Assembly (NCBI GenBank): GCA_026710325.1
Contig: JAPORH010000177.1
Span: forward strand, 1 to 53,047
From: Litoreibacter sp.
Lineage (GTDB): Bacteria > Pseudomonadota > Alphaproteobacteria > Rhodobacterales > Rhodobacteraceae
Direction: 5' to 3'
Length of the DNA: 53,047 nucleotides
Shown: piece after piece, positions 21,683-37,150 of the stretch
Position numbering within the stretch: position 1 is the stretch's first letter
How the letters are laid out: each line of letters opens with the position of its first letter
Program-made: the position numbers and the translations under genes
The notes under the pieces: generated by a model
Seen by the model: the letters and a program-made list of their open reading frames with translations, nothing else
The model's database searches: none
Told to the model about the DNA's origin: nothing

Positions 21683-24670
21683 ATGGGCAATGCACAGGAA
21701 AGACAGATTGACGACGAAAGCTTTGTAGACGAGCTCGCGCCAGGCACGAAACTGTTGCACGGTCAGTTTACGATCGAAAAGTTTCTTAACTCTGGCGGGT
21801 TCGGGATCACATATCTCGCACGCGACAGCCTGGACCGCAAAGTGGTCATCAAGGAGTGTTTCCCGTCTTCGTTCTGTCATCGCTCGCGCGCCATCGTTCA
21901 GCCACGCTCCCGTGCGCACACCGCGGAGCTCAAATCGGTCGTAGACCTGTTTGTCCAGGAAGCGCGCAGCCTTTCCAAGTTGGAGCATCCGAACATCGTC
22001 GGCGTGCACCAGGTCTTTGAAGACAATTCAACCGCCTATATGGTTCTCGATTTTGTCGAAGGCCGTGACCTTCTCGATACGCTGGAAGAGGGCAATCACA
22101 ACCTGACTGCGCCGCAGATCAAAGGCATCCTGAAAGATGTGCTTGGCGCCGTCGGCTACATCCACAGCCAAGACATCCTGCACCGCGACATCTCGCCCGA
22201 CAATATTCTGATCGACGCAGACCTGCGCCCCGTATTGATTGACTTCGGCGCCGCGCGGGAAGAAGCCACCAAGAAAAGCCGCGTCTTGTCTGCGCTTCGC
22301 GTGGTCAAAGACGGCTATTCGCCGCAAGAATTCTATGTTCAGGGCAGCGCCCAGACCCCATCAAGCGACCTCTATGCGCTTGGCGCGACATTCTATCACC
22401 TGATTGAAGGTGAAGTGCCGCCAAATAGCCAAGCACGTCTTGCAGCCATCGCGGCAGGCGAAGAGGACACGTATCAACCCCTCGTGGACCGCGTCAAAGG
22501 CTACGACAAAAAGTTCCTGTCGGCGATCGACAAATCCTTGGGTATTTTGCCGAAAGACCGCCTGCAATCTGCGCAGGAATGGCTGGACATGATGGAAGGC
22601 AAACGCCGCATGTCACGCGTTGTGACACCGGTCGCGCCCCCACCCTCATCGGCCGTTGCTGAGACAGTTGCAGCCGAAAAACGCAACAATTCCAAGCTCG
22701 TACCGCTTCTCGGCTCCACTGCAGTGATTGCAATCCTTGCCGTTGGCGGGTTGTTTGGTACAGGCGTGCTTCAAATGCCAGGCAGTGATGTCAGCGAAAC
22801 CGACGTAGCTGTCGCCAACCCAGCCAGCTCTGACACAGGTTCGACACAAGAGGCGCCAGCAGACGCAGCCCTCCCAGGCCCGCTGGCAGAGGCCGAAGGG
22901 CCAAGCACCACCAGCTCGGGCGCTGACATCGTGGACCGCAACCCAAATTTCCTTGAGATCATCGGCAACGATGGCGGGTCTGGAGCAACCGCACCGGCAG
23001 ATACCGGCGGCGCGCAAACCGCCGAACAAGCCAAAGCGATTTTGCAGGCCGAGATGGAAGCCGCGCAACGCGAGGCAGAAGAACAGCGCCAAGCTGAAAT
23101 CGCCGCAGCCGAAGCTGAAGCGCAACGTCTGGCGGAAATTCAGGCAGCTCAAGATTCGGCACGTCGCGAAGCTGAAGCCGCCGCCGCCAAAGCAGCGGAA
23201 GAAGCGGAGGCCCGCCGTCAAGCAGACGTAGCCGCAACTGAAGCAGAGGCGCAGCGTTTGGCTGAGATCATCGAATCAGAAGCCGAGGCCCGCCGCCAAG
23301 CCGAAGTTGCAGCCGCCGAGGCAGAAGAAAAACGCCTCGCCGAAGTTGCAGCCGCTGAAGAAAAACGCCTTGCAGATATCGCTGCAGCTGAAGCTGAGGC
23401 ACAACGCCTCGCAGAAGTGGCCGCTGCTGAGGCTGAGGCACGTCGCCAAGCCGAGGCCGCAGTGGCGAAAGCTGAAGAACAGCGCCTCGCAGATATCGCT
23501 GCAGCCGAAGCTGAAGCCAAGCGCTTGGCCGAAGTCGCAGCCGCTGAAGCGCAAGCCCGTCGCGAAGCCGAGGCCGCAGCCGCTGAAGCAAACGAGCAGC
23601 GTCTCGCTGAGATCGCAGCCGCCGAAGCCGAAGCCGAGCGCTTGGCTGAAGTCGCAGCAGCGGAAGCCGAGGCACGCCGTCAGGCTGAGATCGAGGTTGC
23701 ACAAGCAAATGAGCAACGCCTTGCAGATATCGCAGCCGCGGAAGCCGAAGCGCAACGCCAAGCTGAAATCGCAGAGGCCGAGGCAGAAGCACGCCGTCAG
23801 GCCGAAATCGAAGTAGCCGAAGCGAAACGCCAGGTTGAAATTGCAGCGGTCGAAGCCGAAGCACGCCGTCTTGCGCAAATTGAGGCCGCCGAGGCCGCAG
23901 CGCAGCGTCAAGCAGAGATTGCCGAGGCCGAAGCCGAAGCTCAGCGCCTTGCAGATATCTCAGCCGCCGAAGCCGAAACCAAGCGTCAGGCAGAAGTCGC
24001 CGCAGCAGAGGCGGAAGCCCAGCGCCAGGCCGAAATTGCAGCCGCGGAAGCAGAGGCCCAAAGCCAACCGGCGATTTCCTTTATCGAAGCCAGACCGGCT
24101 CCCGTTCAATCGTCCAGCGTTCTTTCCGCCTGGTCTTTGGAACTGCCCTTTAGCGGCGAAGGCGACAGCAACGTGATCACCGACGTCAATATCGTGGCAC
24201 CAGCCTGGGCCACCCCGGGCACCAAAGTGGTCGCCGTCAATGGCGCACCTGTCGAGAATCTCGCGGATATCTCCGCGGTCCTGCGCAACACAACGCAGCC
24301 AAGCGAGGGCGCCACGCAGCGCGTTTCATTCATGCTTCAGCCAGAGGCCGGTGGAACGCTCTTTGAGCAGACCTGGGAATTCCCGATCGTGCAGGAAACA
24401 GCATTGCTGAACGGCATCGGTTTCTCCACACGGTTTAACGGTGAAAACTGGACGACCGTGGTCACCGACGTCCCCAGTGGCGGCAGCGACTTCCAGGTTG
24501 GCGACGAACTGATCGCGCTGATGACAACTTCTGAGCGCATCGAAGGCCGCAATTCGCTTCAAGACATCGTCGAGCGGGAGCTTGAAAACGGGCAAACCGA
24601 ATTCAGCTTCGCAGTCTCACGCGATGGCTCCATGTGGGTTGTGTCCATGACCTATAGCGGCGGCGTCTAA
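21683..24670 (+). CDS. Transmembrane Ser/Thr protein kinase with repeat rod and PDZ-like tail
   Basis: A 995-residue protein. The N-terminal Hanks-type kinase (about 25-310) has all catalytic parts: glycine loop NSGGFGITY, Lys57, helix C Glu93, HRDISPDN (167-174) and DFG (187-189). The APE-type segment is altered to GYSPQEF. One transmembrane helix follows at about 338-360, so the remainder should be periplasmic. After a Thr/Ser/Pro linker, residues 447-793 are about 26 copies of a 13-residue Ala/Glu/Arg-rich helical repeat. The last 200 residues look like two PDZ-like units (NGAPV and VGDELIALM). The FHA and PP2C genes follow, so it likely phosphorylates Thr residues read by FHA and reset by PP2C. 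The ligand sensed outside is unknown. Confidence 0.92.
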   Translation: MGNAQERQIDDESFVDELAPGTKLLHGQFTIEKFLNSGGFGITYLARDSLDRKVVIKECFPSSFCHRSRAIVQPRSRAHTAELKSVVDLFVQEARSLSKLEHPNIVGVHQVFEDNSTAYMVLDFVEGRDLLDTLEEGNHNLTAPQIKGILKDVLGAVGYIHSQDILHRDISPDNILIDADLRPVLIDFGAAREEATKKSRVLSALRVVKDGYSPQEFYVQGSAQTPSSDLYALGATFYHLIEGEVPPNSQARLAAIAAGEEDTYQPLVDRVKGYDKKFLSAIDKSLGILPKDRLQSAQEWLDMMEGKRRMSRVVTPVAPPPSSAVAETVAAEKRNNSKLVPLLGSTAVIAILAVGGLFGTGVLQMPGSDVSETDVAVANPASSDTGSTQEAPADAALPGPLAEAEGPSTTSSGADIVDRNPNFLEIIGNDGGSGATAPADTGGAQTAEQAKAILQAEMEAAQREAEEQRQAEIAAAEAEAQRLAEIQAAQDSARREAEAAAAKAAEEAEARRQADVAATEAEAQRLAEIIESEAEARRQAEVAAAEAEEKRLAEVAAAEEKRLADIAAAEAEAQRLAEVAAAEAEARRQAEAAVAKAEEQRLADIAAAEAEAKRLAEVAAAEAQARREAEAAAAEANEQRLAEIAAAEAEAERLAEVAAAEAEARRQAEIEVAQANEQRLADIAAAEAEAQRQAEIAEAEAEARRQAEIEVAEAKRQVEIAAVEAEARRLAQIEAAEAAAQRQAEIAEAEAEAQRLADISAAEAETKRQAEVAAAEAEAQRQAEIAAAEAEAQSQPAISFIEARPAPVQSSSVLSAWSLELPFSGEGDSNVITDVNIVAPAWATPGTKVVAVNGAPVENLADISAVLRNTTQPSEGATQRVSFMLQPEAGGTLFEQTWEFPIVQETALLNGIGFSTRFNGENWTTVVTDVPSGGSDFQVGDELIALMTTSERIEGRNSLQDIVERELENGQTEFSFAVSRDGSMWVVSMTYSGGV
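23021..24060 (+). repeat. 39-bp coding repeats (13-residue units) in the kinase
   Basis: About 26 imperfect tandem units of 39 bases encode the pattern RLAEVAAAEAEAR with Q, K or E variation. The units differ in sequence at synonymous and conservative sites, so this is an old protein repeat, not a fresh DNA expansion. The pattern resembles the helical domain of TolA. Thirteen residues do not match a 7- or 11-residue coiled-coil period, so a single stable helix or a bundle is as likely as a classic coiled coil. Confidence 0.85.
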
Positions 24671-24708
24671 CCCGACGAGCAAGACAAGAACAACAGAGAG
24701 ACAGGACC

Positions 24709-25557
24709 ATGAAATTCATTCGAGATCTCCTTTCCCGCAAGTCAGCGTCAGAGCAAAAGCCGGCTACCTTGGCCGAGGACCTCGTGACACCGCGTAAGGT
24801 GAAAGCACCAGAAATAGAGCCGGTTATCGAGGAAATGCCGGCGCCTGCCGAAGAAAAAGAGGTCACTTTGACCTTGGTCGAAAACGCCACAGGCACCGGA
24901 ACGGAAATGGTCGAAGCAGAAGTCGGCAAAGCCGCTGACGAGCTGCTGAGCAAAGTCAATGCCGAAGTCTCCAACAAAGGTGCACAGGCCGAAGCCGTCA
25001 GCATCTGGGACCTCGACACAGATGACGCCGCAGCACCGGCCGCGGAAGAAAAGCCGACGCCGCGCAAGCGCCGCCGCAACCAGACACGACTTCTGGGCTT
25101 CGAAGATCCCGGCGCGGACGTTGTCTCCCCCTTCGAGAAGGCCGAACCGGTCGCACCCGCTGCGACTGGCGCTAAATTCCCGGTAGGTTGGGTGCTGGTC
25201 ATTGACGGCCCAGGCCGTGGCGAAAGCTTCGCGCTTGAAGCCGGAATGTCACAAATCGGGCGTGCCGAAGATCAAGCCATCCAGCTTGACTTTGGTGACA
25301 ATTCAGTGTCCCGCGTGAACCACGCCGCCATCGTATATGACACCGAAACCCACACCTTCATCCTTGGTCATGGCGGCAAGAAGAACATTGTGCGCCTGAA
25401 CGGCAAGCCGGTGATCTCGAACGAGGACATCAAGACCGGCGACGAAATGAAAGTGGGCGAAACCACACTGCGCTTCGTCGCGGCATGCTCCCCCGAATTC
25501 AACTGGGCAGACCAAGACGACAGCGACGAGGAGAGCGACGATGTGGCGATCGCCTGA
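24709..25557 (+). CDS. FHA domain protein
   Basis: A 282-residue cytoplasmic protein. The first 160 residues are acidic, proline- and alanine-rich and probably disordered, with a basic patch (PRKRRRNQ). The C-terminal 110 residues form a forkhead-associated domain, the phosphothreonine reader: QIGR loop, NSVSRVNHA and RLNGKP carry the conserved Arg, Ser, His and Asn. It has a GAGACAGGA ribosome binding site. Its end overlaps the PP2C gene by 17 bases. Between a Ser/Thr kinase and a PP2C phosphatase it is most likely the reader of the kinase's phosphorylation, either of itself or of a partner. Confidence 0.92.
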   Translation: MKFIRDLLSRKSASEQKPATLAEDLVTPRKVKAPEIEPVIEEMPAPAEEKEVTLTLVENATGTGTEMVEAEVGKAADELLSKVNAEVSNKGAQAEAVSIWDLDTDDAAAPAAEEKPTPRKRRRNQTRLLGFEDPGADVVSPFEKAEPVAPAATGAKFPVGWVLVIDGPGRGESFALEAGMSQIGRAEDQAIQLDFGDNSVSRVNHAAIVYDTETHTFILGHGGKKNIVRLNGKPVISNEDIKTGDEMKVGETTLRFVAACSPEFNWADQDDSDEESDDVAIA

Positions 25558-26527
25558 ACCAAGATTTGACGTCGCCTCAGCGATTTGCCAAGGCGGTCGC
25601 AGCTACCAGGAAGACGCGATCACAACCGATTTTCCATTCGGCGCGGATACCGGCATCGTGGTGCTGGCCGACGGAATGGGTGGCCACGCCGCAGGCGATG
25701 TTGCCTCCAAAATCGTCGTGACTGAAGTGTTCTCGGAGCTGAAGTTCCAAAGCGCGAACTTCGTGCAAAAAGAACGAGAGATCCCCGATTTCATGACCGT
25801 GGCTGCTGCGGAAGCAAACTCTGCCGTCAAGAATCACGTCGATGACAACCCCGCGGTCCGCGGGATGGGCGCGACCTTGGTCTCTGTGATTATGGTCGAG
25901 AACCGCATGTTCTGGATGTCCATCGGCGACAGCCCGCTCTACCTGCTTCGCGGTGGCAAGCTCAGCCAGCTGAATGAGGACCATTCCATGGCCCCCCAGA
26001 TCGACTTCATGGCCAAGCAAGGCCTGATCGATGCGGAAGCTGCGAAATATCATCCTGATCGCAACTGCCTGACTTCGGTCATCTTAGGCGATAGAATTGC
26101 CAAGTCGGATTGCCCAACAACGCCGTTTGAGATCAAGGTCGGCGACATCGTGGTCGTCTCCAGCGACGGGCTACAATATCTTGAAGAAGCAAAGATCCAG
26201 AAGATCTTGCATCGCTATCGTCGCCGCAAGGCAGCTGAGATTGCAGGCTACCTGCTGGAAGCGATCGAAGCTCTGGCTGACCCTGATCAGGACAACGTGT
26301 CCTTTGCGGTCATCAAGCTGAACCACAACAAACCGATGGAGCGCACTATTGCGCCGAAACCAACGGATGTGGTCGACACCCATAGTTCCAACGTGACCCG
26401 CGTCGTACAGCTCGACGAGGTCAAAAAGGAGATGCCTGAGTTCAAAACGAAGAACAAACCGGCGCCTGCGGATGGGAAATCCGACGATGTTGAGCCACCA
26501 GCGAAAATCTCGGTCGGTGAAAAATAA
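25541..26527 (+). CDS. PP2C-type Ser/Thr protein phosphatase
   Basis: A 328-residue phosphatase that likely reverses the neighbouring kinase. The metal-binding aspartates are in place: YQED near the start, LADGMGGHAAGD, VVSSDGL and DPDQDNVSF. MSIGDSPLYLLR is the central PP2C strand pair. The last 70 residues are charged and probably flexible. There is no membrane segment. The start overlaps the FHA gene by 17 bases and its TAA stop shares a base with the ATG of the next GTPase gene. This tight packing argues for fixed stoichiometry in one complex or pathway. Confidence 0.94.
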   Translation: MWRSPEPRFDVASAICQGGRSYQEDAITTDFPFGADTGIVVLADGMGGHAAGDVASKIVVTEVFSELKFQSANFVQKEREIPDFMTVAAAEANSAVKNHVDDNPAVRGMGATLVSVIMVENRMFWMSIGDSPLYLLRGGKLSQLNEDHSMAPQIDFMAKQGLIDAEAAKYHPDRNCLTSVILGDRIAKSDCPTTPFEIKVGDIVVVSSDGLQYLEEAKIQKILHRYRRRKAAEIAGYLLEAIEALADPDQDNVSFAVIKLNHNKPMERTIAPKPTDVVDTHSSNVTRVVQLDEVKKEMPEFKTKNKPAPADGKSDDVEPPAKISVGEK

Positions 26528-27840
26528 TGTCGGCGCAGGGTGAGGTTCAGGAGGCGCATCACGACCTAAAGCAGGCGATCGAGGGCGGAAAGCTGTCCGG
26601 AGCATTGCAGGAGCGCGCGGAAGCGCTCTTGCAACGTATCGAACGACCGCTGCGCCTTGGCGTGATGGGGTTGCCCGGAAGCGGGAAATCGACCCTACTC
26701 AACCTGCTTTTGGGCCAAAACGTCCTTCCAGAAGGCGTTCGGCTGCCAACCTTACAGCTCGCCTATGGCGAAGTCCCTGTTATGAAATGTACTTTGGGCG
26801 ACGGTTCGTCCAAGTCGCTTCAAAGCGACAATTTGGAAGCCCTGGCAGAGCTTAAACCGGCTTTCGCGCAGGTCTATCTACCGCTCCCAGCTTTGAACAA
26901 GCTTTCCATGATGGAGGTCGTTGCAAGCGCTGACACGCGCGAGCAGAGTCGGGCCATCAGCTGGGCGGCAAAACGCACAGATATCGCACTTTGGTGCAGT
27001 GCGGGCCGTTTCGACGAGGACGAGGAAGAGCTTTGGAGCTATGCACCCGAAAAGGTGCAGGATCACGCTTTCCTGATGCTCACCCATGCCGACACCCCAG
27101 CCACCAACGGCGATCCGCGCCAAAGACTGGCCGAGGCCAAGTCGCATGCTCAAGACTACTTCAAATCGATCCTGCCGATTGGCACCAAAGCCGCGCTTGC
27201 AGCCCGCAAGTCGGATGGATCGGTCGACAAGGAAGCGCTACGCGGCTCGGGTGGCATGGCCTTGATCTCCGGCATTTTGAAGGATGTGGAAACGGCCCGT
27301 GAAAGCGCCGTGGACCAGGCGCATATCTTCCTGCGTCAGGTCGATTTTTCAGGCAACGCCAAACCGCAAACCCGTGTGCTTGAGCGTGAGGTTGCGCCCT
27401 CTGAAGGCGAAGCTCCACAACAGGCCGAACCAAAAACCGAAGCCGTCAAATCTGCGAAGAAAGCGCCCGAGCCAAAGAAAAAGGCACCAGCGCCCGCGAA
27501 ACAGCCAAGCTACGCACCAGAGTCGCGCGCTGCGATTGAGATTGCAGTGGAACAGTTGAGCGCTGAAGGCAGCGTGATGCTCGAAGGTCTACGTGCGGGC
27601 TCACTTGACGACATCACCGTCATCGAGACATGCGTCGACACGGTCAAATGGCTCGATGAGTATCTCTCTAATAGTGGCGTGGCCAATGATCCGCTCTATG
27701 CCAAGACGTGCGAGGTGGCAGTCGATGCGGCCGACCTGATTCAGCTCATCCAGCTCGAGCCAGGCGACGGTGTCGCCTCCGATGCTCTAAGCCTCATGGT
27801 ACAGCTCAAGCAGGACCTGCAAAGCAACCTTGCAGCCTAA
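26527..27840 (+). CDS. P-loop GTPase-like protein with degenerate G3
   Basis: A 437-residue protein with a G1 loop GLPGSGKST (about 44-52) after an N-terminal helix. The G4-like segment is LTHAD. Where a DxxG G3 motif is expected I see only MMEVVASADT, so hydrolysis may be weak or absent. The segment ALWCSAGRF parallels VLWCTHATQ of the third GTPase at 30204, so the two are probably paralogues. Residues about 280-330 are Lys/Ala/Pro-rich (KKAPEPKKK) and probably a linker, followed by a helical C-terminus. The ATG overlaps the PP2C stop (TAATG). It belongs to the dynamin/Era-like small GTPase group by feel; its partner is unknown. Confidence 0.85.
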   Translation: MSAQGEVQEAHHDLKQAIEGGKLSGALQERAEALLQRIERPLRLGVMGLPGSGKSTLLNLLLGQNVLPEGVRLPTLQLAYGEVPVMKCTLGDGSSKSLQSDNLEALAELKPAFAQVYLPLPALNKLSMMEVVASADTREQSRAISWAAKRTDIALWCSAGRFDEDEEELWSYAPEKVQDHAFLMLTHADTPATNGDPRQRLAEAKSHAQDYFKSILPIGTKAALAARKSDGSVDKEALRGSGGMALISGILKDVETARESAVDQAHIFLRQVDFSGNAKPQTRVLEREVAPSEGEAPQQAEPKTEAVKSAKKAPEPKKKAPAPAKQPSYAPESRAAIEIAVEQLSAEGSVMLEGLRAGSLDDITVIETCVDTVKWLDEYLSNSGVANDPLYAKTCEVAVDAADLIQLIQLEPGDGVASDALSLMVQLKQDLQSNLAA

Positions 27841-27850
27841 AGAACTCACA

Positions 27851-28039
27851 ATGACCGACGCAGTTGACACATACTCAGAACGGTTTGTTTCCAATTTAAA
27901 TCAAATTCGCGCCACAAAATTGCCGTTCCCGGCCGGTCATATTCATCGAATGAGACACCTCTCCGGCATGTGGCCGGAACACGCGCCCGCCGGCGCGCAA
28001 AATATCGGCAAGGGACAAAGTGTGGGAGCTGAACAATGA
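27851..28039 (+). CDS. Small protein of unknown function
   Basis: A possible 62-residue protein (MTDAVDTYSERFVSN and so on, ending SVGAEQ). Support: it fills the only gap in the locus, its stop overlaps the start of the next gene as ATGA, and its direction agrees. Against: no recognisable domain and a poor ribosome binding site. An earlier in-frame ATG at 27830 lies inside the preceding gene. It may be a real small subunit or only a leader that couples translation of the dynamin gene. Confidence 0.45.
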   Translation: MTDAVDTYSERFVSNLNQIRATKLPFPAGHIHRMRHLSGMWPEHAPAGAQNIGKGQSVGAEQ

Positions 28040-30207
28040 AAATAGAGACGATCGCTGCGGAAGAGGGTGAAACGCAGGTTGATATGCCCGCGCCCTATAA
28101 CACGCAGTCGCTGACACCTGGCTTCGCACGCAATGGTCTCGACAACATGGACATGTTCCATGAGGAAATGCTCGACCTTCGCGAAGCGCTTCTGGATATT
28201 GAAAGCTTCGGTGGCCCTGAGGCGAAGAAAAAGGCTCAGAAACTTATCGGCTCGCTTGACGAGTTCGAGCCGTCCATCACGATGATTGGCCAGATCAAAT
28301 CCGGCAAAACCTCCCTCGTAAACGCCATGGCAGGCCGCCCTGAACTTCTTCCCGCCGATGTGAACCCTTGGACCTCGGTCGTGACGTCCCTTCACTTGAA
28401 CACACCCGTCGAAGACAAAGGCACAGTTGCGTCGTTCCAGTTCTTTGATCAATCCGAATGGGACCACCTTGTTGAAAACGGGGGTCGCATAGGCGAGCTT
28501 GCCAGCCGCGCCGGTGCCTCCGACGAATATGAGAAAGTCCGCGAACAGATCGCGGAGATGCGGGAAAAGACCAAAGCCCGCCTCGGCCGCAAGTTTGAGC
28601 TGATGCTCGGCCAAACCCACAATTATCGCCACCTCGATGAAGAACTTATGCAGCGCTACGTTTGCATGGGCGACGATTTTGGCGACCCTGCGTTGCTCGA
28701 TGAGCAGGGCCAATTCGCCGACATCACCAAATCCGCCGACCTATATCTCGACGCGCCGTCTCTTCCGATCCCGCTTTGCATCCGCGACACGCCGGGTGTG
28801 AACGACACGTTCATGATGCGCGAGCAGATCACCATCAACGCGCTGCGCGGCAGCCGTATTTGCGTTGTTGTCCTATCGGCCTCGCAGGCGCTCAGCTCGA
28901 TGGATATGGGGCTCATCCGCCTGATTTCTAACGTGAAGGCGCGCGAAGTCGTCATCTTCGTTAACCGCATCGACGAGCTGGCCAACCCAAAAGACGAAAT
29001 CCCTGAGATCGAAGCCTCAATCCTTCAAACGTTGGCCGACAACCATGGTCCGTCCGATATCGAGATCATTTTCGGCTCAGCCTATTGGGCCAACATGGCG
29101 CTTCAGGAAAAAGTCGAAGACATCGTCCCCGATAGTGCCGCTGCACTGAAAAACTACGCCGACGAAGGCGACGACGCGCTGTCCAATGAACAAACCTGGG
29201 ACCTTTCGGGTCTGCCGGACCTTTACGATGCAATAGCCAAACGCATCGCGGGCGGCGAAGGCACCGAAATGATGAACGCGATCCGGAAGCGGGCCACAAA
29301 CCACCTTCATGGTTTGAAAGCATCCAGCTCCATCGTGTCTCTGCGCCTCGGGGATCAACAGCTGAAAATGATCGAGCCAGAGGTGCTGGCCAAGCGTCTC
29401 GACGGCATCGAGGATCGCTACCACAACATGCTGAACGATCAGATCAACAAGCTGGTCGAGGGCTATTCGCGCCGGATTGAGCAATCACATAAGCGGTTCC
29501 TTGACCGCGCATTGGAATCCCTGCTGACGCATCTGGAAACCAAAGGTGACAGCGAGCTTTGGCAGTACTCGCCCGACGGGCTGCGCATTTTGCTGCGTTC
29601 CGGCTATCAATCCATGCGCAAATCGGTCGCTGCCGCCTGCGAGGCCGTCTTCGACGCCGCCGCGAAAGAGCTGACGCATACCTATCACAATGTGCTGTCC
29701 GCCGAAGTCGACGGGTTCACGATTACCCCTCCATCCGTCCCAGAGTTCCCGCCCCCGGTTACCTTGGGACAGACAATCGCTTTGGACCTGCAGACCTCAT
29801 GGTGGGACGGCTGGTGGAAACGCCGCAAAGGCTACCGCGCCTATGCAGACTCATTCTACGAGTTGATCGAGGCCGAGACATCTCCAATCGTCAATGACCT
29901 GAAAGACGGTCAAGTCGAAGATATCCGCCGAATGGCCCTTGAAGAGTTGGAAGAGTTCATCTCGGAGCAGGCCGGTATTCTAACTGATATTAGCAACAAG
30001 TCGCAGATCTCTTTTAACGAGCTGAAAGACCTCTTTGGCATCACCAAGCAGGAAGAACGTGACTCCCTCTTCGAGATTTTGTTCGAGGAATTCGCCGTCG
30101 AAGAGCCTGCCGAAACGGCTGAGCCTGAAGAGCCATCCGACGCCCCTGTGCGGCCCGAGCGCCCCACATCAATCATCCGCGCAGTAAATGAAGGAGACGC
30201 AGCATGA
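28036..30207 (+). CDS. Dynamin-family GTPase
   Basis: A 723-residue large GTPase. G1 is GQIKSGKTS (about 85-93), the G2 Thr is in NPWTSVVT, G3 is DTPGVND (about 251) and G4 is NRID (about 311), all intact. A long helical middle and stalk-like region follows. At about 590-620 is a Trp- and Arg-rich patch (SWWDGWWKRRKG), which could be a membrane-binding paddle. No transmembrane helix is visible. The C-terminus is acidic and proline-rich. Bacterial dynamin-like proteins bind and reshape membranes. Here it is embedded in a kinase-phosphatase locus. It begins by ATGA overlap with the small gene before it and its stop overlaps the next GTPase. Confidence 0.92.
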   Translation: MKIETIAAEEGETQVDMPAPYNTQSLTPGFARNGLDNMDMFHEEMLDLREALLDIESFGGPEAKKKAQKLIGSLDEFEPSITMIGQIKSGKTSLVNAMAGRPELLPADVNPWTSVVTSLHLNTPVEDKGTVASFQFFDQSEWDHLVENGGRIGELASRAGASDEYEKVREQIAEMREKTKARLGRKFELMLGQTHNYRHLDEELMQRYVCMGDDFGDPALLDEQGQFADITKSADLYLDAPSLPIPLCIRDTPGVNDTFMMREQITINALRGSRICVVVLSASQALSSMDMGLIRLISNVKAREVVIFVNRIDELANPKDEIPEIEASILQTLADNHGPSDIEIIFGSAYWANMALQEKVEDIVPDSAAALKNYADEGDDALSNEQTWDLSGLPDLYDAIAKRIAGGEGTEMMNAIRKRATNHLHGLKASSSIVSLRLGDQQLKMIEPEVLAKRLDGIEDRYHNMLNDQINKLVEGYSRRIEQSHKRFLDRALESLLTHLETKGDSELWQYSPDGLRILLRSGYQSMRKSVAAACEAVFDAAAKELTHTYHNVLSAEVDGFTITPPSVPEFPPPVTLGQTIALDLQTSWWDGWWKRRKGYRAYADSFYELIEAETSPIVNDLKDGQVEDIRRMALEELEEFISEQAGILTDISNKSQISFNELKDLFGITKQEERDSLFEILFEEFAVEEPAETAEPEEPSDAPVRPERPTSIIRAVNEGDAA

Positions 30208-31409
30208 CCGAGGCCGCTCGCAAACCTCGCATCGCCCTGATGGGCGAATTCAGTGCCGGTAAAAGCACGCTGTCCAACCTTCTACTGGGCTCGCGCCCTT
30301 TGCCTGAGAAGGTGAACGCAACACGCCTCTCGCCTGTCTGGATGTCACACGGCACAGATGCAGCCTACCGCGAAGACGTGAGCGGCACGCAAGAGCCAGT
30401 CTCCATCGAGGCTTTGGAAGGGATCGACGTCGAGACCACAAAAGTTATCCGGCTGTTCTTTGAAGCCGATATCCTTCAAGTCTGCGACCTGATCGACTTT
30501 CCCGGCATTTCTGACCCGAACATGTCATCGGAAGTCTGGCAACGCATGTTGGGTGAGGTCGATGCGGTGCTCTGGTGCACCCATGCCACCCAAGCCTGGC
30601 GGCAATCTGAATCTGCAGTCTGGGATACGATCCCCGAAGCCGTACGCGATCGCTCTGTCTTGCTGGTCACAAAGTATGACAAGCTGACCACCGAGCGAGA
30701 CGAGTTCCGTGTCGTGGCTCGCTTGAAAAAGGAAACCGAAGGCAAGTTCGGCGCTATTTTCCCGATTTCTCTGACAGCCGCGATTGCTGCGGGCGAGGAC
30801 TATGAAGCATTTGACGCCAGCGGCGGTGGTGCATTCCTTGAACATCTGATCCCGTTGATTGACGAGCTGAACGGCACAGTCAGCGGTATGACAAAGTCAC
30901 TCTTCGCAGCGTCGAGCCCCAATCAACACGACGCGGCCGACGCCCCTGCTCCGACCTCTGACGCGCAAGCGGAAAGCCCAGTTCCGACACCTGAGCCAGC
31001 AGTTGCGCGCGAGCCAATGACCGCTTTTGCTCAAGCTGTCGCCCAACCAACTGAATCTGCAACATCGCAAGAAAACCCGGTCGTCACGGCCGAGCCCGCA
31101 ACGCTTGCTGGCGAAAGCCCTGCTGTAGAGGTCCCGACTTCCAAGCCTGTTTTGCAGGTAGAGAGCGACCAACCCGTCGCCGCGCCTGCCGCAGCTCCGG
31201 TCGACGCCATGGATGAGCGTGTCCTTCCGAAACGCGTGCGTCCTGTAGGCTCGGGAACCCGCAGGCCGGTGCGCCCTACCGCCAAGGGTCAGGTCCTTTC
31301 GATGGACAAAGCCTCTGATATGGCACCGCCGGAACGACCACGTTCTACACAGGCGACCCAACTCCGTTCATTCTTCGTCGGTGAAGCCGACGGGGCATCA
31401 CACTCGTAA
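30204..31409 (+). CDS. Dynamin-like small GTPase with disordered tail
   Basis: A 401-residue protein. The GTPase part (about 1-230) has G1 GEFSAGKST (14-22), G3 DFPGISD (about 99) and G4 TKYD (about 156). Residues 230-400 are rich in Pro, Ala, Ser, Thr and Glu and look disordered. The very end carries a basic patch (KRVRPVGSGTRRPVRP). Thr and Ser there could be targets of the adjacent kinase, but this is inference. Its ATG overlaps the dynamin stop by four bases. Pairing of a large and a smaller dynamin-like GTPase is seen in other bacteria, where the two work as a hetero-oligomer. Confidence 0.9.
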   Translation: MTEAARKPRIALMGEFSAGKSTLSNLLLGSRPLPEKVNATRLSPVWMSHGTDAAYREDVSGTQEPVSIEALEGIDVETTKVIRLFFEADILQVCDLIDFPGISDPNMSSEVWQRMLGEVDAVLWCTHATQAWRQSESAVWDTIPEAVRDRSVLLVTKYDKLTTERDEFRVVARLKKETEGKFGAIFPISLTAAIAAGEDYEAFDASGGGAFLEHLIPLIDELNGTVSGMTKSLFAASSPNQHDAADAPAPTSDAQAESPVPTPEPAVAREPMTAFAQAVAQPTESATSQENPVVTAEPATLAGESPAVEVPTSKPVLQVESDQPVAAPAAAPVDAMDERVLPKRVRPVGSGTRRPVRPTAKGQVLSMDKASDMAPPERPRSTQATQLRSFFVGEADGASHS

Positions 31410-31486
31410 TTTTGCTAGCCGCCGCCTTCCATTTCTAAAATGTTTGCCGTACCCAAGATGAAACTGGTTAACACGTCGGATAAGCG

Positions 31487-31828
31487 ATGGCTCAAAAAGT
31501 ACTCGATTTGCTGTGTGACGAGGTGGCTGGGTGCAAGACAGCGGCCTTCGTCGATCTTTCAACACGGATGGTGCTCGTGACGAACGGGACCAACACCGAA
31601 AGCCAAGACACGCTCAACGAAATGTGTCAGGAAGCCGAGCTCATGCTTGTTGGCGGCGACACTGCGATGGTGGCCACAAGCGGGCATATGCGGCTATATC
31701 TGCGCGATGACGCCGAGCCAAATGATGCGCTTTGCTGTGTGTGCGAAACGGATACGAATTTTCCAGAGCTGATCGCCAAGGCAAAGGCCTGCCTCAGCGA
31801 AATCAGCAATGTAAGCGGAAATGACTGA
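31487..31828 (+). CDS. Small protein, possibly roadblock/LC7-like
   Basis: A 113-residue cytoplasmic protein. The order of strands and helices (AAFVDLSTRMVLVTNG, then a long helix with LNEMCQEAELML, then ATSGHMRLYLRDD and a last strand and helix) resembles the roadblock/LC7 fold of MglB-like regulators of small GTPases. Sequence identity alone is not enough to be sure. Its place directly after the GTPases fits a regulator. It has seven Cys, unusual for a cytoplasmic protein of this size; two are adjacent (ALCCVC). The start is 77 bases after the GTPase stop and the end overlaps the next gene by eight bases. Confidence 0.8.
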   Translation: MAQKVLDLLCDEVAGCKTAAFVDLSTRMVLVTNGTNTESQDTLNEMCQEAELMLVGGDTAMVATSGHMRLYLRDDAEPNDALCCVCETDTNFPELIAKAKACLSEISNVSGND

Positions 31829-32417
31829 CGATCTTGAAAAGAAGTTGACCGCGCTCACGGACCCCGCAAAGTTCGACGCCGGCGCGATGGTGCTCGGCCC
31901 CGCAGGGACCGAGGCCACAAGCGCAGCAATGCTTCATGCCATCGATAACACCATTCTGCCTTGCAAAATCGTGTTCTCTATTGGCGCGTCATCTATCACA
32001 CTCGCCGCAGGCGGGAGGCGGTTGCGCAGCTGTCTCGAGGCAAGCGACGATCTGAATGCACCCTCCGACGCCTTGGGCACAACGCTCTCGTCCGAGGAAC
32101 AGGACGCCCTGATCAAAACAGGTAAACTCATCAACGAGCTTTTGCGCAAAGACGGCGCGCTCTTGATGAAGCGCCATGTCGAATCCGCCTCCACCGGACA
32201 ATCTGATGCTGGCGTCGGCGTGAAGACTCTGGCCGAGCTTTGGGGCGTTGACCTCGACGCGGCCCCGCCAACGCAGTTTGAAGCTTTCGAGACAGCCCTC
32301 GGTGACAGCTTCATTGCGAGCATTGAAACCGACGGGACGGCACGTACCGAGACGCGGGGCGACGCAAGCACAGCTGACACGCGACGTCCTACCAAAGCTT
32401 ACCCAGCTCGAGGCTGA
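31821..32417 (+). CDS. Protein of unknown function, probably frameshifted
   Basis: The open frame gives 198 residues, but the last 20 (after TETRGDAST) look non-coding. The +1 frame that follows encodes a sensible helical continuation up to 32586. Joining the frames at the GGGG run 32356-32359, by dropping one G, yields a 254-residue protein reading TETRATQAQLTRDVLPKL. I do not recognise the family. The N-terminal half has a roadblock-like pattern of short strands (KIVFSIGASSITLAAGG), and the rest is mainly helical. It overlaps the preceding small gene by eight bases and appears to end the GTPase locus. The shift could be a sequencing error or a real lesion. Confidence 0.7.
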   Translation: MTDDLEKKLTALTDPAKFDAGAMVLGPAGTEATSAAMLHAIDNTILPCKIVFSIGASSITLAAGGRRLRSCLEASDDLNAPSDALGTTLSSEEQDALIKTGKLINELLRKDGALLMKRHVESASTGQSDAGVGVKTLAELWGVDLDAAPPTQFEAFETALGDSFIASIETDGTARTETRGDASTADTRRPTKAYPARG

Positions 32418-32586
32418 TCTGAGCAAGATCAGCACCCAGCGCACGGCGCCTTACCTGCTGACATTGAACAGCGCGCTCTCTGATGGCGCGCTTGTAAGTC
32501 TGTTTGTTACGACCAACACCAAGTCCCTCGTCGCCAGCGCGCCCGGTTCTTTGGCTGAAGTCGCCGGGACCTGGGGCCAAGTTTAA
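32360..32586 (+). pseudogene. Out-of-frame C-terminal part of the 31821 gene
   Basis: In the frame one base ahead of the upstream reading frame, this stretch codes for ATQAQLTRDVLPKLTQLEAD and then STQRTAPYLLTLNSALSDG, a plausible alpha-helical and strand sequence ending in WGQV at a TAA. It lacks its own likely start and ribosome binding site, so it reads as the detached end of the gene before it. Confidence 0.6.
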
Positions 32587-32783: not shown

Positions 32784-34361
32784 ATGTGGTACGCTCACAG
32801 TCTGTTAACCAAACGAACCAGATACGCCGTCGCTTTGGCAAGCACGAGCATACTCGCAGCTGCGGCCTGCGCCGAGACGGTCACGATGCGTTCCACCGAC
32901 GGCACGGTAACGATGCAAGGCGAGCTGGTGCGCTATGATGAGAACGAATTCGTTCTGGCGACTGCACTTGGTGAGGTTCATCTCCCAATCAATCGGTTTT
33001 CTTGTGACGGCGACAACTGCCCGGTTTTCGCAGCCGAGGACGCTGATTTCATCATGGCTGGCTCCGACACCGTCGCCATAGGCGTCATGCCTCTGTTGAT
33101 ATCTGGATATGCCGCATTTTTGGGGGCAGAGCTCGAAGAAAAGGTTATAAACGCAAGCGGTGATTTGGCAGGGACTGTCAAGCAGCCGGGCCTAGGCACA
33201 AAAAAACCCAACTTCTTGATCTCATCAACCTCCCCCTACGATGCGTTCGAAAACCTAGGCGCTCAGACGATCGATATCGCACTAACATCGGAAGGCCGTC
33301 ACAGCGGTCAAACGAGGCTTCTTGCGCAGGTAGACGCGAGCGAAACTCAAGATCATTTACTCGCCATCGACAGCCTGGTCGTCATCACACATCCAAGTAA
33401 CCCAGTTCGGGAACTTTCACTCGCGCAGATGCGTGATATCTATTCCGGAAAGGCAACGAACTGAGGCGAGTTGGGTGGCATTGACCAACCCATTACAGTT
33501 GTCGCCCGTCAGCCAGAGTCGATTACGCGTGAGCTGTTCCAATCTACGCTTTTCACAGACCATAGCCCTGCAATACCCGTCGATGCTGCAATTGCAGCAA
33601 ACAACAACGCAGTCGCCGAGCAGGTCAATACCGATCCTTCTGCTATTGGATATGTCAGCCATGCGTTCACGCGCGGCGCTGCTCCGATCACACTCATCAA
33701 CGATTGCGGTCTGGTTAGCCGCCCCGACGCCTTTTCAGCCAAAACCGAAGAATACCTCTTTCAGCGTCACCTCCACATGTACACCCGAAGCGACAACACA
33801 TCCGAGATCGCCTCAGATTTTGTGCGATACGCCGCGTCCCATCAGGCCGACCAAACCATCGCGAAGGCTGGGTTTGTCGATTTCGGCATCGCCACAAAGA
33901 TACAAACGCGCGACGGCTTTCGCGCACATCAGCTCAAATCTCCATCAAAAGACCCTTTTGAAGGCGTCTTGAAACATGACATGCTGACCCAGCTGCCAAA
34001 TTATGAGCGGCTATCCACAACGTTCCGTTTCGCACATGGCACGACCGATCTGGACGCTCGTGCCGCAATCGATATGACCCGCCTTGCCGACTACGTCAGC
34101 GATTTGCCCTACGGCACGCGGGTCATGTTTGCCGGTTTCACCGACGACAGCGGCGACTTTGTGGAAAACCACAGTCTTTCAAACGCTTGGGCGAAAGATG
34201 TTTTGGCGGCGTTCGCTGCCCATGCTGGCGGTGAACTAGGCGCAATCGAACTCAGCCATACGGGTTTTGGCGAACTTGCACCCACAGCCTGCAATACAAC
34301 CGAACAAGGCCGCGCGCTCAACCGCCGGGTGGAGGTGTGGGTCAGCAGAGCCACCAGCTGA
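32784..34361 (+). pseudogene. PstS-like/OmpA envelope protein interrupted by TGA
   Basis: Two open stretches in the same frame (32784-33464 and 33471-34361) encode one logical protein of 525 residues. It has a signal peptide (ending ACAE), a small beta domain with a Cys pair (CDGDNC), a phosphate-binding-protein-like domain, and a C-terminal OmpA-like peptidoglycan-binding domain (GFTDDSGDF, then GRALNRRVEVWV). The TGA at 33462-33464 falls in SGKATN-stop-GELGGI. The paralogue at 35621 has SGNYTNWNALGG, and PstS-type proteins carry Trp there, so TGG probably changed to TGA. It may be a pseudogene, a sequence error, or be read through. A TTG at 33471 after GAGGCGAG could restart translation, but without a signal peptide. 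Confidence 0.8.
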
Positions 34362-34432
34362 TCGCCTTGGCGCCCATAGGGCAAGCAGTCCAGGGTGGTC
34401 GGTAAATGCATCAACGCGAAGCTGATCCAAAC

Positions 34433-34466
34433 AAAAAGGGCGCGCCTGCAGCAGCGCGCCCTTTTT
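34433..34466. terminator. Strong bidirectional terminator
   Basis: A perfect 8-bp GC stem (34438-34445 with 34454-34461) with an 8-base loop is flanked by five A on the left and five T on the right. It lies between two convergent genes (stops at 34361 and 34486) and should end transcription from both sides. Confidence 0.92.
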
Positions 34467-34485
34467 CATTTCTATGACAAGGAAC

Positions 34486-35583
34486 TTAGCTGCTCGTTGC
34501 AGCGCGGTGTGCGACCAAATGACGGCGCACGATGCTGAACCAGTCACCAGAGTTTTTGATTTTTTCGATGCCTGAGTTCAAAGTATCTAGATAGTCCTCC
34601 ATCCGCGGATGCGTGTTTGAAATCACCGCATGCATGGTGAGAACCTGGCTGAGGTTCTCGTTGAAGTAGACGTCGCTGTCGATGCCAAGTTGTGAGATGG
34701 CCCCATCCGCCACATCGGACGAAATGGCCACCACATCGTATTCACCAGCGGCAAGCCCCTGGAAACACTCCGCCGGCGAACCGGGGCGCGCCAGTGTGAC
34801 ATTCGGCTCGACGAGGTTATGCTCCTCTAGCTGGAAAATCGCATAGCCTGCGGGCCGGCAAATCCGAGTGCCCATCAGGTCTTCATGGGCAGCGGGACGC
34901 AAGCCGTCTGTACGCGTGTAGTAGCCGAAAATCTGCTCAAACAGCGGCTCAGACCATCCAAGGTTGTTGCAGCGGAACTTCGAGCCGTCTCCCAGACGCT
35001 CAACGATATCGCAATTCGGGCGGAACCAAGCGAGGGAGAAGTCATAGGCATGGTCGGAGATGAGCGGTTGAAGATGCGCACCCCAGTCGTTGATAAAGTC
35101 AATCTGGTAGTTGGGAGCGCCGTCAGCATTCTCCATGGCAACATTGGTGATCTCAACGACCATGCCGCCTTGTTCCTGGTCCTCGTTGGTGAAAGGCGCC
35201 CAGTCAGTGCCCACCACGAAGCGGATGGTGTCTGGGTCTGGTAAAGGCAGGGCCTCGGTCGTCTTTTCAATGGTGATCGCGTCGGCATTTGCGGTCGATG
35301 GCGCGAGCGCCGCATTCAGACATGGGATGTCGAAACGCATGCCAATCTCGATCAAGCCAGGGTTGGGACCGATCAGGTCAGAGTTGACAGAGTAGATGGC
35401 TCTAAACTCTTTGCTGTTGCCATAGGCACGGGCCGCGATGGCGCCCAAGGTATCTCCGGATTTCACAACATAGGTCTCGCCGCATTGAATTGACGACGTT
35501 GATGCGACCCCCTGCGTTGTCCATGATAACATTGTGGTTGCGGCGAAAACGGCGCCGATTGCCAGTGTTCTAGTGGTTTTCAT
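34486..35583 (-). CDS. LysM domain fused to SBP family 3 domain, secreted
   Basis: A 365-residue secreted protein. The signal peptide (MKTTRTLAIGAVFAATTML) is followed by a LysM domain at about residues 35-85 (YVVKSGDTLGAIAARAYGN), which binds peptidoglycan glycan. Then comes a solute-binding domain of family 3 (FVVGTDWAPFTNED, with VVEITNVAM and the ISSDVADGAISQ end). No transporter gene is adjacent, so it may be a sensor or a scavenging protein rather than a transport component. I chose 35583 with GGAGAAACG upstream; the open frame reaches 35991 but that part is the shadow of the next gene. It lies 37 bases downstream of a PstS-like gene, probably one transcript, and ends at the bidirectional terminator. 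Confidence 0.9.
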   Translation of the reverse strand: MKTTRTLAIGAVFAATTMLSWTTQGVASTSSIQCGETYVVKSGDTLGAIAARAYGNSKEFRAIYSVNSDLIGPNPGLIEIGMRFDIPCLNAALAPSTANADAITIEKTTEALPLPDPDTIRFVVGTDWAPFTNEDQEQGGMVVEITNVAMENADGAPNYQIDFINDWGAHLQPLISDHAYDFSLAWFRPNCDIVERLGDGSKFRCNNLGWSEPLFEQIFGYYTRTDGLRPAAHEDLMGTRICRPAGYAIFQLEEHNLVEPNVTLARPGSPAECFQGLAAGEYDVVAISSDVADGAISQLGIDSDVYFNENLSQVLTMHAVISNTHPRMEDYLDTLNSGIEKIKNSGDWFSIVRRHLVAHRAATSS

Positions 35584-35620
35584 AGTCGTTTCTCCATTGA
35601 AAACTGATTTTTGCATTGGG

Positions 35621-37150
35621 TTATTGGGTGACGTTGGTGGGTTGGATCCAAACTTCGACGAAGCTCTCTTCGACGCCTGCTTCTGACGCGAAGCACTCAA
35701 CTCCAACATTCGCATGACCTTGCGCGCGCAAGGTGGTTCCTGCTGTACGATTTGCATCCGGTGTAAATGCAATGAACTCGTCGAGCATCTTCTGGGCGAC
35801 GCGATCAGCTTCCTGGATCGCGCTTGCGGCGCTGTCCAAGTTCGAAAACCCGACGAAGACCACCTCGTGACCGGCATAAGCGCCGCTCTCGATTGCCTCG
35901 GCCAAACGAACAAAATCGCCTCGGGTCCGTGCAAGTGCCGCGTCAGTGCCAAGCGTCCCGTCCAAACGGATCGACAATTGCTTTGCCTCAAGTAAGTAGT
36001 CGAGAAACCCGCGTGCCGCCGGCTTCAACCCTTCCGGCCAATCCGCGGACAACATCTTGGTTAAGCGTTTGCCATGCGCGTCCGCAGGCACCTGTTCGAT
36101 CTTCTGGTAGGCATAGCCTGAGGCCGATACGACATTTTGTATGACATCACCGGACAGGCTATCTAGCAATATCGTGGTGGCGTCAGTCCCGCGATCCTTG
36201 TCCAGAACCGCATAGCTTGAAACCGTCAAAGGGTAGGTGCCCTTGGCAACGCTGATTGCATCAGGATAGACCATCCCGCCGCACGCATTTCGGATCGGTA
36301 TGATCTTGTCAGGATCGACGGCATTAAGCGACGCCATGCCAATCCCACCTTCAGACTGGCTGGTAAACTGCGACAGCACGTCATCATTAGCGAAGCGCAG
36401 AATATTATTGCTCGCGCTAAATCCAAAGGGGCTCAATACACTTGCTTCCAAAGCTTGAAGCTGGCTTTGCGCGTTCGCCGTTGCAAAAAGCTGTACGGCT
36501 AAATCGTTTCCCCCCAGAGCATTCCAATTAGTGTAATTTCCGGAAAATAGGCCAGCAATCTGACTTAATGTCAGCGACTCCACACCAGTATTTTGCCCGA
36601 GAATTATTCCATATGGTTCTATAGCCAGTTCAAACGCTTGCCGGTTTTGCCCATCTGCCGCACTAAGCGAACTGTCCGGCAAAAAAGATGTCGCTGCATG
36701 GCTGCCGAGCTTAAATCGCAATTCAGCATCGTCATCAGGGCCAACATAAGTCAAAACAGAGGTAGCTTTGGGTGAACCAGCCGACAATTGCACACCTGTT
36801 TCGGTCGGCACGACATCAACGCCAGCATTCGCAGAAACGAAATCCAAGGACATCAGCGTCTTGATCAAAATGCGCTGACGATCGCTCTTAAAGGAAACGC
36901 TCCATTCGGTGTTACTGGGCGCAAGCGCCAGGCCTGGTGGGCATTCGCCACGACAGGCAACCTCGCTTGCGGGGATTTTCACGACGCCATACCCGGTCTT
37001 GATGGAAATCATTGTTCCATCAAATGCTTCAATCGTACCTTCAACGGTCATAAGACCGTCGTCTGATATCAACTCGGCCTGTTGTGCCGCAGCAAAGCAA
37101 GGGGTTACGACCAACCCCAAAAGCAACGCCAAGCGCGAAACAGTACACAT
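35621..37150 (-). CDS. PstS-like/OmpA envelope protein, paralogue
   Basis: A 509-residue secreted protein. After a signal peptide (ending FAAAQQAE) comes a 45-residue beta domain (DDGLMTVEGTIEAFDG, CRGECP), then a phosphate-binding-protein-like domain with SGNYTNWNALGG, and a degenerate OmpA-like C-terminus (VVFVGFSNLD, FVEVWI) that lacks the NRRVEV signature of its paralogue at 32784. The N-terminal beta domain with two Cys is shared by both. There is no PstABC transport gene nearby, so a role as phosphate importer subunit is unlikely; the protein may be an envelope sensor or stress protein. It is divergent from the thiamin operon. Confidence 0.9.
   Translation of the reverse strand: MCTVSRLALLLGLVVTPCFAAAQQAELISDDGLMTVEGTIEAFDGTMISIKTGYGVVKIPASEVACRGECPPGLALAPSNTEWSVSFKSDRQRILIKTLMSLDFVSANAGVDVVPTETGVQLSAGSPKATSVLTYVGPDDDAELRFKLGSHAATSFLPDSSLSAADGQNRQAFELAIEPYGIILGQNTGVESLTLSQIAGLFSGNYTNWNALGGNDLAVQLFATANAQSQLQALEASVLSPFGFSASNNILRFANDDVLSQFTSQSEGGIGMASLNAVDPDKIIPIRNACGGMVYPDAISVAKGTYPLTVSSYAVLDKDRGTDATTILLDSLSGDVIQNVVSASGYAYQKIEQVPADAHGKRLTKMLSADWPEGLKPAARGFLDYLLEAKQLSIRLDGTLGTDAALARTRGDFVRLAEAIESGAYAGHEVVFVGFSNLDSAASAIQEADRVAQKMLDEFIAFTPDANRTAGTTLRAQGHANVGVECFASEAGVEESFVEVWIQPTNVTQ

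Follow-up and report, generated by a model that had tools for sequence, protein, structure and literature searches.

A conserved eight-gene set in a mostly marine bacterial order suggests membrane remodelling or repair on cell-envelope signals

Relation to described systems

What bacterial dynamins do, and what triggers them, are largely open questions in the field. The two DLPs of Campylobacter jejuni assemble into a membrane-bridging 2:2 tetramer (PMC6104087; this and the other published systems are cited from the accessible parts of their reports). In a 53,047-nucleotide stretch of DNA from Litoreibacter sp. (hereafter the window; it is contig 60 of a 240-contig genome of 4.19 Mb), we find genes that resemble both halves of this pair within a set of eight co-directional genes, A to H, at positions 21683–32417. 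The set encodes a membrane Ser/Thr kinase (A), an FHA protein (B), a PP2C-type phosphatase (C), a degenerate GTPase (D), a dynamin-like protein (E), a small dynamin-type GTPase (F) and two further proteins (G and H), and it is followed, at 32784–37150, by genes for periplasmic proteins. The same eight genes are conserved in many bacteria of one mostly marine order, which suggests that these bacteria remodel or repair their membranes on signals from the cell envelope.

In the comparison with the Campylobacter pair (PDB 5owv), E resembles chain A, Cj-DLP1, and F resembles chain C, Cj-DLP2, and the two genes are adjacent and mostly overlapping here. Unlike in that pair, however, F appears to be a GTPase head alone and an extra F-like copy, D, has been added; the Campylobacter operon, as far as the accessible text describes it, carries an HcpA-like gene but none for a kinase, an FHA protein or a PP2C enzyme (PMC6104087). 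For the signalling genes, the nearest functional analogue known to us is the GlnH–GlnX–PknG–OdhI pathway of Corynebacterium, in which a signal runs from a periplasmic binding protein through a Ser/Thr kinase to Thr14, near the N-terminus of an FHA protein, and a phosphatase resets the system (PMC9769921). The order of binding protein, kinase and FHA protein is the one that we propose below, but the Corynebacterium pathway acts on 2-oxoglutarate dehydrogenase and uses a separate transmembrane protein, whereas the kinase here is predicted to span the membrane itself and has dynamins as neighbours. Three FHA proteins, GarA, OdhI and DgcB, bind by their FHA domain a threonine of their own tail, with hydrophobic residues at −3, +2 and +3, Glu at −2 and Ser at +1; in DgcB of Bdellovibrio it is the phosphorylated N-terminal tail that is bound, and the output is c-di-GMP (PMC6733907). 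Finally, the GTPase-centric conflict systems with GAP1-N2 also place GTPase genes close to genes for a kinase and a PP2C enzyme, but their kinase–PP2C variant includes a vWA gene and is said to be confined to actinobacteria, and the word "dynamin" does not occur in the main text of the report as accessible (PMC7159879).

Kinase, phosphatase and FHA reader are also encoded together in the threonine-phosphorylation pathway of type VI secretion, PpkA–PppA–Fha (PMC3953482), and the locus might be such a pathway that has drifted away from its secretion genes, the more so as the FHA region of B matches Yop-YscD_cpl, too. We consider this highly improbable. TssB (PF05591) was detected in 9 of 32 genomes with E and in none of them beside the locus: the strong matches lay on other contigs than E or, in one genome (G422), about 1 Mb away, and one borderline match in the same genome was ~67 kb off. 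The genomes are drafts, and a contig with TssB may adjoin that with E. No secretion gene was recognised among the 22 most widespread clusters of neighbouring genes, and the neighbours of the signalling genes are dynamins. The possibility raised in the preliminary description, that type VI or other known secretion genes always flank the set, is thereby contradicted for type VI, with TssB on other contigs or at least ~67 kb away.

Literature searches aimed at a kinase–FHA–PP2C–dynamin locus brought up none among the titles and abstract openings listed, subscription papers being mostly outside their range. The parts are already known; their union, a kinase–FHA–PP2C relay with a dynamin pair as its probable output, did not appear in those listings.

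Conservation and co-occurrence of the gene set

Gene order was compared in 80 loci, the best 80 of 487 confirmed, chosen by E alone from a collection of 84,980 species' genomes (loci carry L numbers below). By their record titles, all belong to genera of Rhodobacterales or are unplaced bins of Rhodobacteraceae, Alphaproteobacteria or Pseudomonadota. The genes A–H are complete and collinear in 48 of the 80; 16 further loci agree up to the end of their contig, 2 are divided into two units, and 14 deviate. L059, from Yoonia vestfoldensis DSM 16212, has all of A–H. In the two divided loci, L088 and L089, all genes are kept, with E-F-G-H converging on A-K-K-B-C-D, where K is a gene for a periplasmic protein. 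Among the deviating loci, A is missing beside B in six (L086, L105, L106, L107, L109 and L113), L078 has D–H only, L111 and L114 have D–H with H in two pieces, and L091 is rearranged; the remaining four (L083, L084, L124 and L126) were counted as deviating with F or G present but removed by the overlap filter. Nearest to the window, the proteins are collinear with those of four loci of the same genus from A to H (L024, L025, L026 and L028), and with L027 as far as its contig reaches; in L029–L036 the set is more diverged and sometimes incomplete. The recurrence is far beyond chance, because the same order returns in dozens of diverged genomes with the active residues conserved. Distance matrices of A–G correlate at 0.84–0.96 over 49 loci, with none of 300 permutations as high for any pair; joint inheritance as a unit would give such values, but so would simple vertical descent.

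The set is found on plasmids as well, in Leisingera sp. S132, L. caerulea and L. aquaemixtae and, rearranged, in Ruegeria sp. B32. In Leisingera all genes are still together although the operon has been broken into two convergent units; the split operon on the S132 plasmid (L044) shares 30 kb with universal stress proteins, a P-type ATPase, a formate transporter and RbbA, an island of stress type. Our own genome (G000) appears to hold a second, diverged set spread over two contigs, A-B-C and C-D-E-F-G (at the end of C202 and the start of C13), with an extra E-F pair beside it.

Co-occurrence was counted in a census of 394 genomes, approximately one per genus of the family, with E called strong above 340 bits and an A-like kinase above 250 bits; copy numbers are lower bounds as at most two E candidates and five kinase candidates were scored per genome. 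E matches 102 of the genomes, 97 of them strongly, and an A-like kinase is present in 87: both occur in 82, strong E only in 15, the kinase only in 5 and neither in 292 (odds ratio 319, Fisher p 3e-62, uncorrected for kinship). In 68 of the 82 genomes with both, the two lie within 15 kb, and in 63 of these they are on the same strand with A upstream. Across the phylum, E was found in 9 of 398 sampled genomes, 8 of them in this family, our own included.

A phospho-signalling cassette and a dynamin pair, each independent of the other, could merely have come to lie side by side, and each is indeed found without the other nearby. E-F pairs stand without the kinase cassette in the stretches of L037, L040, L042 and L043, and Rhodobacter sp. 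CZR27 shows dynamin pairs only in the stretch seen. For the cassette, 20 kinase regions were picked by hand: nine where kinase and E are unlinked, two with the kinase only, five around extra kinases of linked genomes and four with the kinase downstream or on the opposite strand. These show A-B-C alone (L172 and L177), A-B-C-D (L171) and A-B-C with genes for binding proteins (L175, L176, L179, L184, L186 and L190), four of the last (L175, L179, L186 and L190) having dynamin genes, too; L178 and L185 have a kinase and binding proteins with no B or C in the stretch, and the others are mixed. Against a chance neighbourhood, however, stand the order kept in dozens of genomes, the strong co-occurrence, the overlaps of B with C in 65 of 67 loci and of C with D in 53 of 72 (both inflated by longest-frame starts) and the fact that the genes stay together after rearrangement, and we regard independence as improbable. 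The system consists of a signalling module and a dynamin module, usually in one operon and separable. The preliminary description had proposed a single system, which would fail if the genes occurred apart with no conserved order in related genomes; the neighbourhood comparison across Rhodobacterales bears out the order, and one co-inherited system is well supported by the order, the co-occurrence and the persistence after splitting, with the qualification that the two modules can part.

Properties of the encoded proteins

The gene-level claims of the preliminary description largely held (Table 1). The open reading frames, their order and the plus strand were confirmed, with overlaps at four of the seven junctions (B/C by 17 bases, C/D by 1, E/F by 4 and G/H by 8), as were the kinase, the phosphothreonine reader, the PP2C phosphatase and three P-loop GTPase-like proteins including a dynamin, the third of them below the cut-off. 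Of the eight or nine genes claimed, eight stand; the frame at 32248–32586, taken for a possible ninth, matches the end of H in L026 and is the far end of H, which is a single frame of 257–267 residues in the four same-genus relatives.

Table 1. Genes of the locus and its downstream flank in the window
Feature	Positions	Strand	Source	Description
A	21683-24670	+	open-reading-frame list	membrane Ser/Thr kinase, 995 aa
B	24709-25557	+		FHA protein, 282 aa
C	25541-26527	+		PP2C-type phosphatase, 328 aa
D	26527-27840	+		degenerate GTPase, paralogue of F; possible adaptor or pseudo-GTPase
E	28036-30207	+		dynamin-like protein, 723 aa, DLP1-like
F	30204-31409	+		small dynamin-type GTPase; DLP2-like GTPase head with poorly conserved tail
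G	31487-31828	+		small protein, probably divergent Roadblock/LC7 fold
H	31821-32417, then other frame 32248-32586	+		conserved protein, no family assigned
J	32784-34361	+		periplasmic-binding-protein fold and OmpA domain; one in-frame stop at 33462-33464
K	34486-35583	-		LysM and solute-binding-protein fold, 365 aa from ATG at 35583
Second protein with periplasmic-binding-protein fold, PstS-like	35621-37150	-		PstS-family 42 bits (cut-off 207); PBP_like_2 2.4e-6

The active residues of the kinase, the phosphatase and the FHA domain are intact. Conservation was read from alignment columns, frames outside set length limits being excluded. Kinase A (Pfam Pkinase, 2.1e-33) consists of a kinase domain, one transmembrane segment predicted from hydropathy only (around residues 339–357), a long stretch rich in Ala and Glu and a C-terminal tandem PDZ-like region, and its K57, HRD, N174 and DFG are conserved in 58 of 58 aligned proteins, the window's included. 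Phosphatase C (PP2C_2, 3.7e-12) stays below the cut-off of the Stp1/IreP family model (149 against 230 bits); its D25, D44, D209 and D251 are conserved in all 67 aligned proteins, again with the window's, and a short TR[VLIT][VLI] motif stands in the tail of 34 of 68. In protein B (FHA 2e-6, Yop-YscD_cpl 6e-8), the FHA residues G184, R185, S201, R202, H205 and N231 are found in 66 of 66 and N226 in 65. Ahead of the FHA domain, B has a long stretch with little conservation except in its first few residues and one motif, R-x-[KQR]-T-R-[LVM]-[LI]-G-F (core TR[LVM][LI]GF), whose T126, R127, G130 and F131 are invariant in the 66 proteins. Around this threonine, 65 of the 66 proteins have R at −3; at −2, 30 have T, 18 V, 10 N and 6 A; +1 is always R, and +2 and +3 are always hydrophobic; the last two are features of self-binding FHA tails (PMC6733907, in its accessible part), by analogy with which B may be a phospho-switch of the GarA/OdhI/DgcB type. 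For any study of the locus, the motif points to the first residue of interest.

The preliminary description left the periplasmic binding proteins unconnected to membrane kinases, and the association was found here. LysM and OmpA modules usually bind peptidoglycan, and both families, J and K, join a ligand-binding fold to one of the two modules; the folds resemble binding proteins of amino-acid and phosphate type. The pieces of J in the window match PBP_like_2 and OmpA, and the gene is a single uninterrupted frame downstream of H in L024, L025, L026, L028 and L029; in a family set of 22, the first member of which is the other copy in the window (35621–37150), PBP_like_2 was matched by all and OmpA by 21. 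K of the window matches LysM at 7e-5 (scanned from 35718), and its family matches LysM in 20 of 24 and SBP_bac_3 in 10 of 24. Among 93 kinases examined (L025 and L027 being omitted as they share contigs with L049 and L050, and L033, L039 and L041 as partial), 65 have a transmembrane segment with an ectodomain and 28 do not, four of the latter having a C-terminal transmembrane segment and no ectodomain. A K- or J-type gene lies within 12.5 kb of 32 of the 65 ectodomain kinases and of only 1 of the 28 others (p 1e-5, uncorrected for kinship), and in three cases the frames of kinase and binding protein abut or overlap (distances −3, −6 and −52). The ectodomain itself gave Pfam PDZ matches below the cut-off, the best at E ~1e-4; some such match was seen in each of the five ectodomains tried.

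The two dynamins resemble the two halves of the Campylobacter pair. E (Dynamin_N 5e-12) has Cj-DLP1 (5owv_A, 7e-14) as its top match in a profile search, followed by BDLP1 (2j68, 1.6e-9), and F (Dynamin_N 4e-10) has Cj-DLP2 (5owv_C) first, at 3.5e-21 over ~200 residues. In the 80 loci, the G1 P-loop, the G3 motif DTPGVND and G4 are found in 80, 77 and 80 copies of E, and G1, G3 and G4 in 79, 79 and 75 copies of F. The gap between the two genes is below 100 bases in 79 of the loci, with an overlap in 53. E is long enough for a neck, a trunk and a membrane-binding tip, whereas F is conserved only over approximately its first 235 residues; the tail of F carries a P[KR]R[VI] motif in 61 of 80.

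D is paralogous to F (hhalign probability 99.9, E 2e-31), but in the window it matches Dynamin_N at 2e-4 only, below the cut-off, and has a P-loop without a G3 (DxxG) motif at the aligned place. The P-loop pattern is present in 70 of 76 D frames and D.[PA]G, anywhere, in 18; the five copies of L030–L034 have lost the P-loop as well. D-like genes accompany A-B-C in two loci (L171 and L173) and next to the second kinase in L182, with no E in those stretches, and because of this we take D as a candidate adaptor.

The roadblock-like regulator suggested for G drew a divided answer. A profile–profile alignment of G with Robl_LC7 scored 36.3 over 114 columns (hhalign probability 76), whereas the highest scores were 15.1 among 60 column shuffles and 17.5 among nine other profiles, with 20.2 for a tenth, small family. 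On the other hand, none of the 17 members had a direct Pfam match to Robl_LC7 at E up to 10, no Robl_LC7 match was found in the own genome at 1e-5, and a PDB profile search of G gave unconvincing matches only, mostly to phospholipase A2, with a best E of 0.04. G is probably a divergent Roadblock/LC7 protein, a fold that regulates GTPases elsewhere. H had no PDB match, its copy in L026 and the longer piece in the window had no Pfam match, and it resembled nothing tried.

In dynamin-only loci and in L091, a conserved domain of ~120 residues, FIGxCLVDxETGLMLASEGG...ILITLGxQxHLIRPL, is fused to or follows F (L040, L041, L042, L043 and L091). By its look it was tried as a Roadblock domain and rejected (hhalign probability 1.6 against Robl_LC7); four such proteins scanned had no Pfam match, and domains of this type also adjoin Robl_LC7 genes elsewhere (L133, L146, L147 and L149).

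Proposed pathway and competing explanations

We propose a pathway from signal to membrane, with periplasmic sensors, a kinase and PP2C phosphatase, an FHA switch and a dynamin pair, and rate it as evenly balanced between right and wrong. Wall-anchored binding proteins of the OmpA (J) and LysM (K) types would detect a solute or the condition of the wall and pass the signal to the membrane kinase through its PDZ-like ectodomain. This kinase, with the phosphatase working against it, would phosphorylate the invariant threonine in the tail of B; once phosphorylated, the tail would dock on an FHA domain, either its own or that of a neighbouring molecule, freeing or blocking a surface for a partner. 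By way of the degenerate GTPase D, and perhaps also of the roadblock-like G, the switch could determine whether E and F assemble on the inner membrane, where the assembled DLP1/DLP2-like pair would tether, seal or reshape the membrane. The preliminary description had phosphorylation control the assembly of the dynamins, and we likewise infer that step, from the phospho-relay to the dynamins.

A broader version of the pathway, for which our confidence is somewhat below that, is a network of many inputs: several membrane kinases in one genome, each paired with a wall-anchored binding protein of its own, would converge on the FHA switch, which would license a DLP1/2-type pair, probably via the degenerate third GTPase, with dynamin-driven membrane remodelling as the output. 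Five genomes of Rhodobacter/Tabrizicola type have B–H with no adjacent A and four or five A-like kinases elsewhere, and for this reason the input to such sets can come in trans.

Several observations weigh against the proposed pathway. In this genome, J is interrupted by its in-frame stop, which, as for the interrupted H, may be a real lesion or an assembly error. The kinase is not beside the set in 7 of the 80 loci with the flank visible (six without A, and L078 without A–C); 15 of the 97 genomes with strong E have no A-like kinase, and in 14 of the 82 that have both, the two are not found within 15 kb of each other on a single contig. No binding-protein gene lies within 12.5 kb of 33 of the 65 ectodomain kinases; the count of those that have one is weighted towards related genomes, and 12 of its 32 cases stem from the 20 regions picked by hand. 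The motif of B lacks the Glu at −2, the Ser at +1 and the hydrophobic residue at −3 of the known self-binding tails (PMC6733907, as accessible), no neck or trunk is visible in F, and D is not degenerate at every locus, the copy of L038 retaining DAPG. Lastly, what we observe is the gene set with its order and co-inheritance, the intact active residues, the invariant motif, the association of ectodomain kinases with binding proteins and the kinship to the Campylobacter pair; all contacts between the proteins, the site of phosphorylation, the way in which control runs, the part played by D and the protection of the membrane as the outcome are inferred.

The stronger of the two functional rivals is ordinary envelope morphogenesis: the same parts would serve division, polar growth, the flagellar base or vesicles under nutrient or wall signals, and not the repair of damage. 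The neighbourhood gives this some colour. In seven loci of the Rhodobacter/Tabrizicola group (L105, L107, L109, L113, L097, L103 and L118), the first larger frame downstream of H is what we take, from its sequence, to be a MotB-like gene, followed by presumed flgE/flgK-like genes in six and a flgL-like gene in five, and a MreB-like gene is nearby in five loci of Boseongicola and Silicimonas; the likeness of the sensors to amino-acid and phosphate-type binding proteins would also fit. Yet the neighbours differ between lineages, and the set is not essential to division since 292 of the 394 census genomes are without both strong E and an A-like kinase. On balance, we judge the morphogenetic explanation unlikely.

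To anti-phage defence, in which the dynamins would guard the membrane during infection or lysis with the kinase–phosphatase pair as the infection sensor, we assign a low probability. The spread of the set is patchy (E occurs in 7 of the 21 genomes from the genus, in 16 of the 81 genomes searched altogether and in 102 of 394 from the family), copies of E occur in 18 of 72,556 plasmid records, and a kinase–kinase–phosphatase defence module of prophages has been described (PMC11341870, from its accessible part). In PADLOC, E is weakly similar to LeoA and LeoBC (3e-12 and 1e-8) and the kinase to mad6 and PD-T4-6. However, the many PADLOC matches to kinases look generic, and the curated NCBIfam models failed, with 142 bits against a cut-off of 460 for mad6, the kinase of MADS, and 11.5 against 325 for DLP_LeoA_gen. 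A search of 50,697 phage records gave no match and one of viral contigs no confirmed relative, by which a phage or viral origin is rejected as well; by eye, none of the 22 most widespread neighbour clusters could be recognised as a defence gene, no defence-library scan being applied to them. Furthermore, 19 loci of Yoonia, Loktanella and related bins have a GAPDH-like gene as their upstream neighbour, which marks a stable chromosomal place, and the wall-anchored binding proteins point to the envelope.

Returning to the pathway from envelope signal to dynamin pair, an operon that couples dynamins to a kinase, a phosphatase, a phosphothreonine reader and periplasmic sensors provides a genetic handle on these proteins in free-living bacteria. 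Elsewhere in the window, positions 46010–48607 encode a protein of 865 residues that by eye resembles a secreted metalloprotease with calcium-binding repeats and carries the motif HEIGHAMGLGH.

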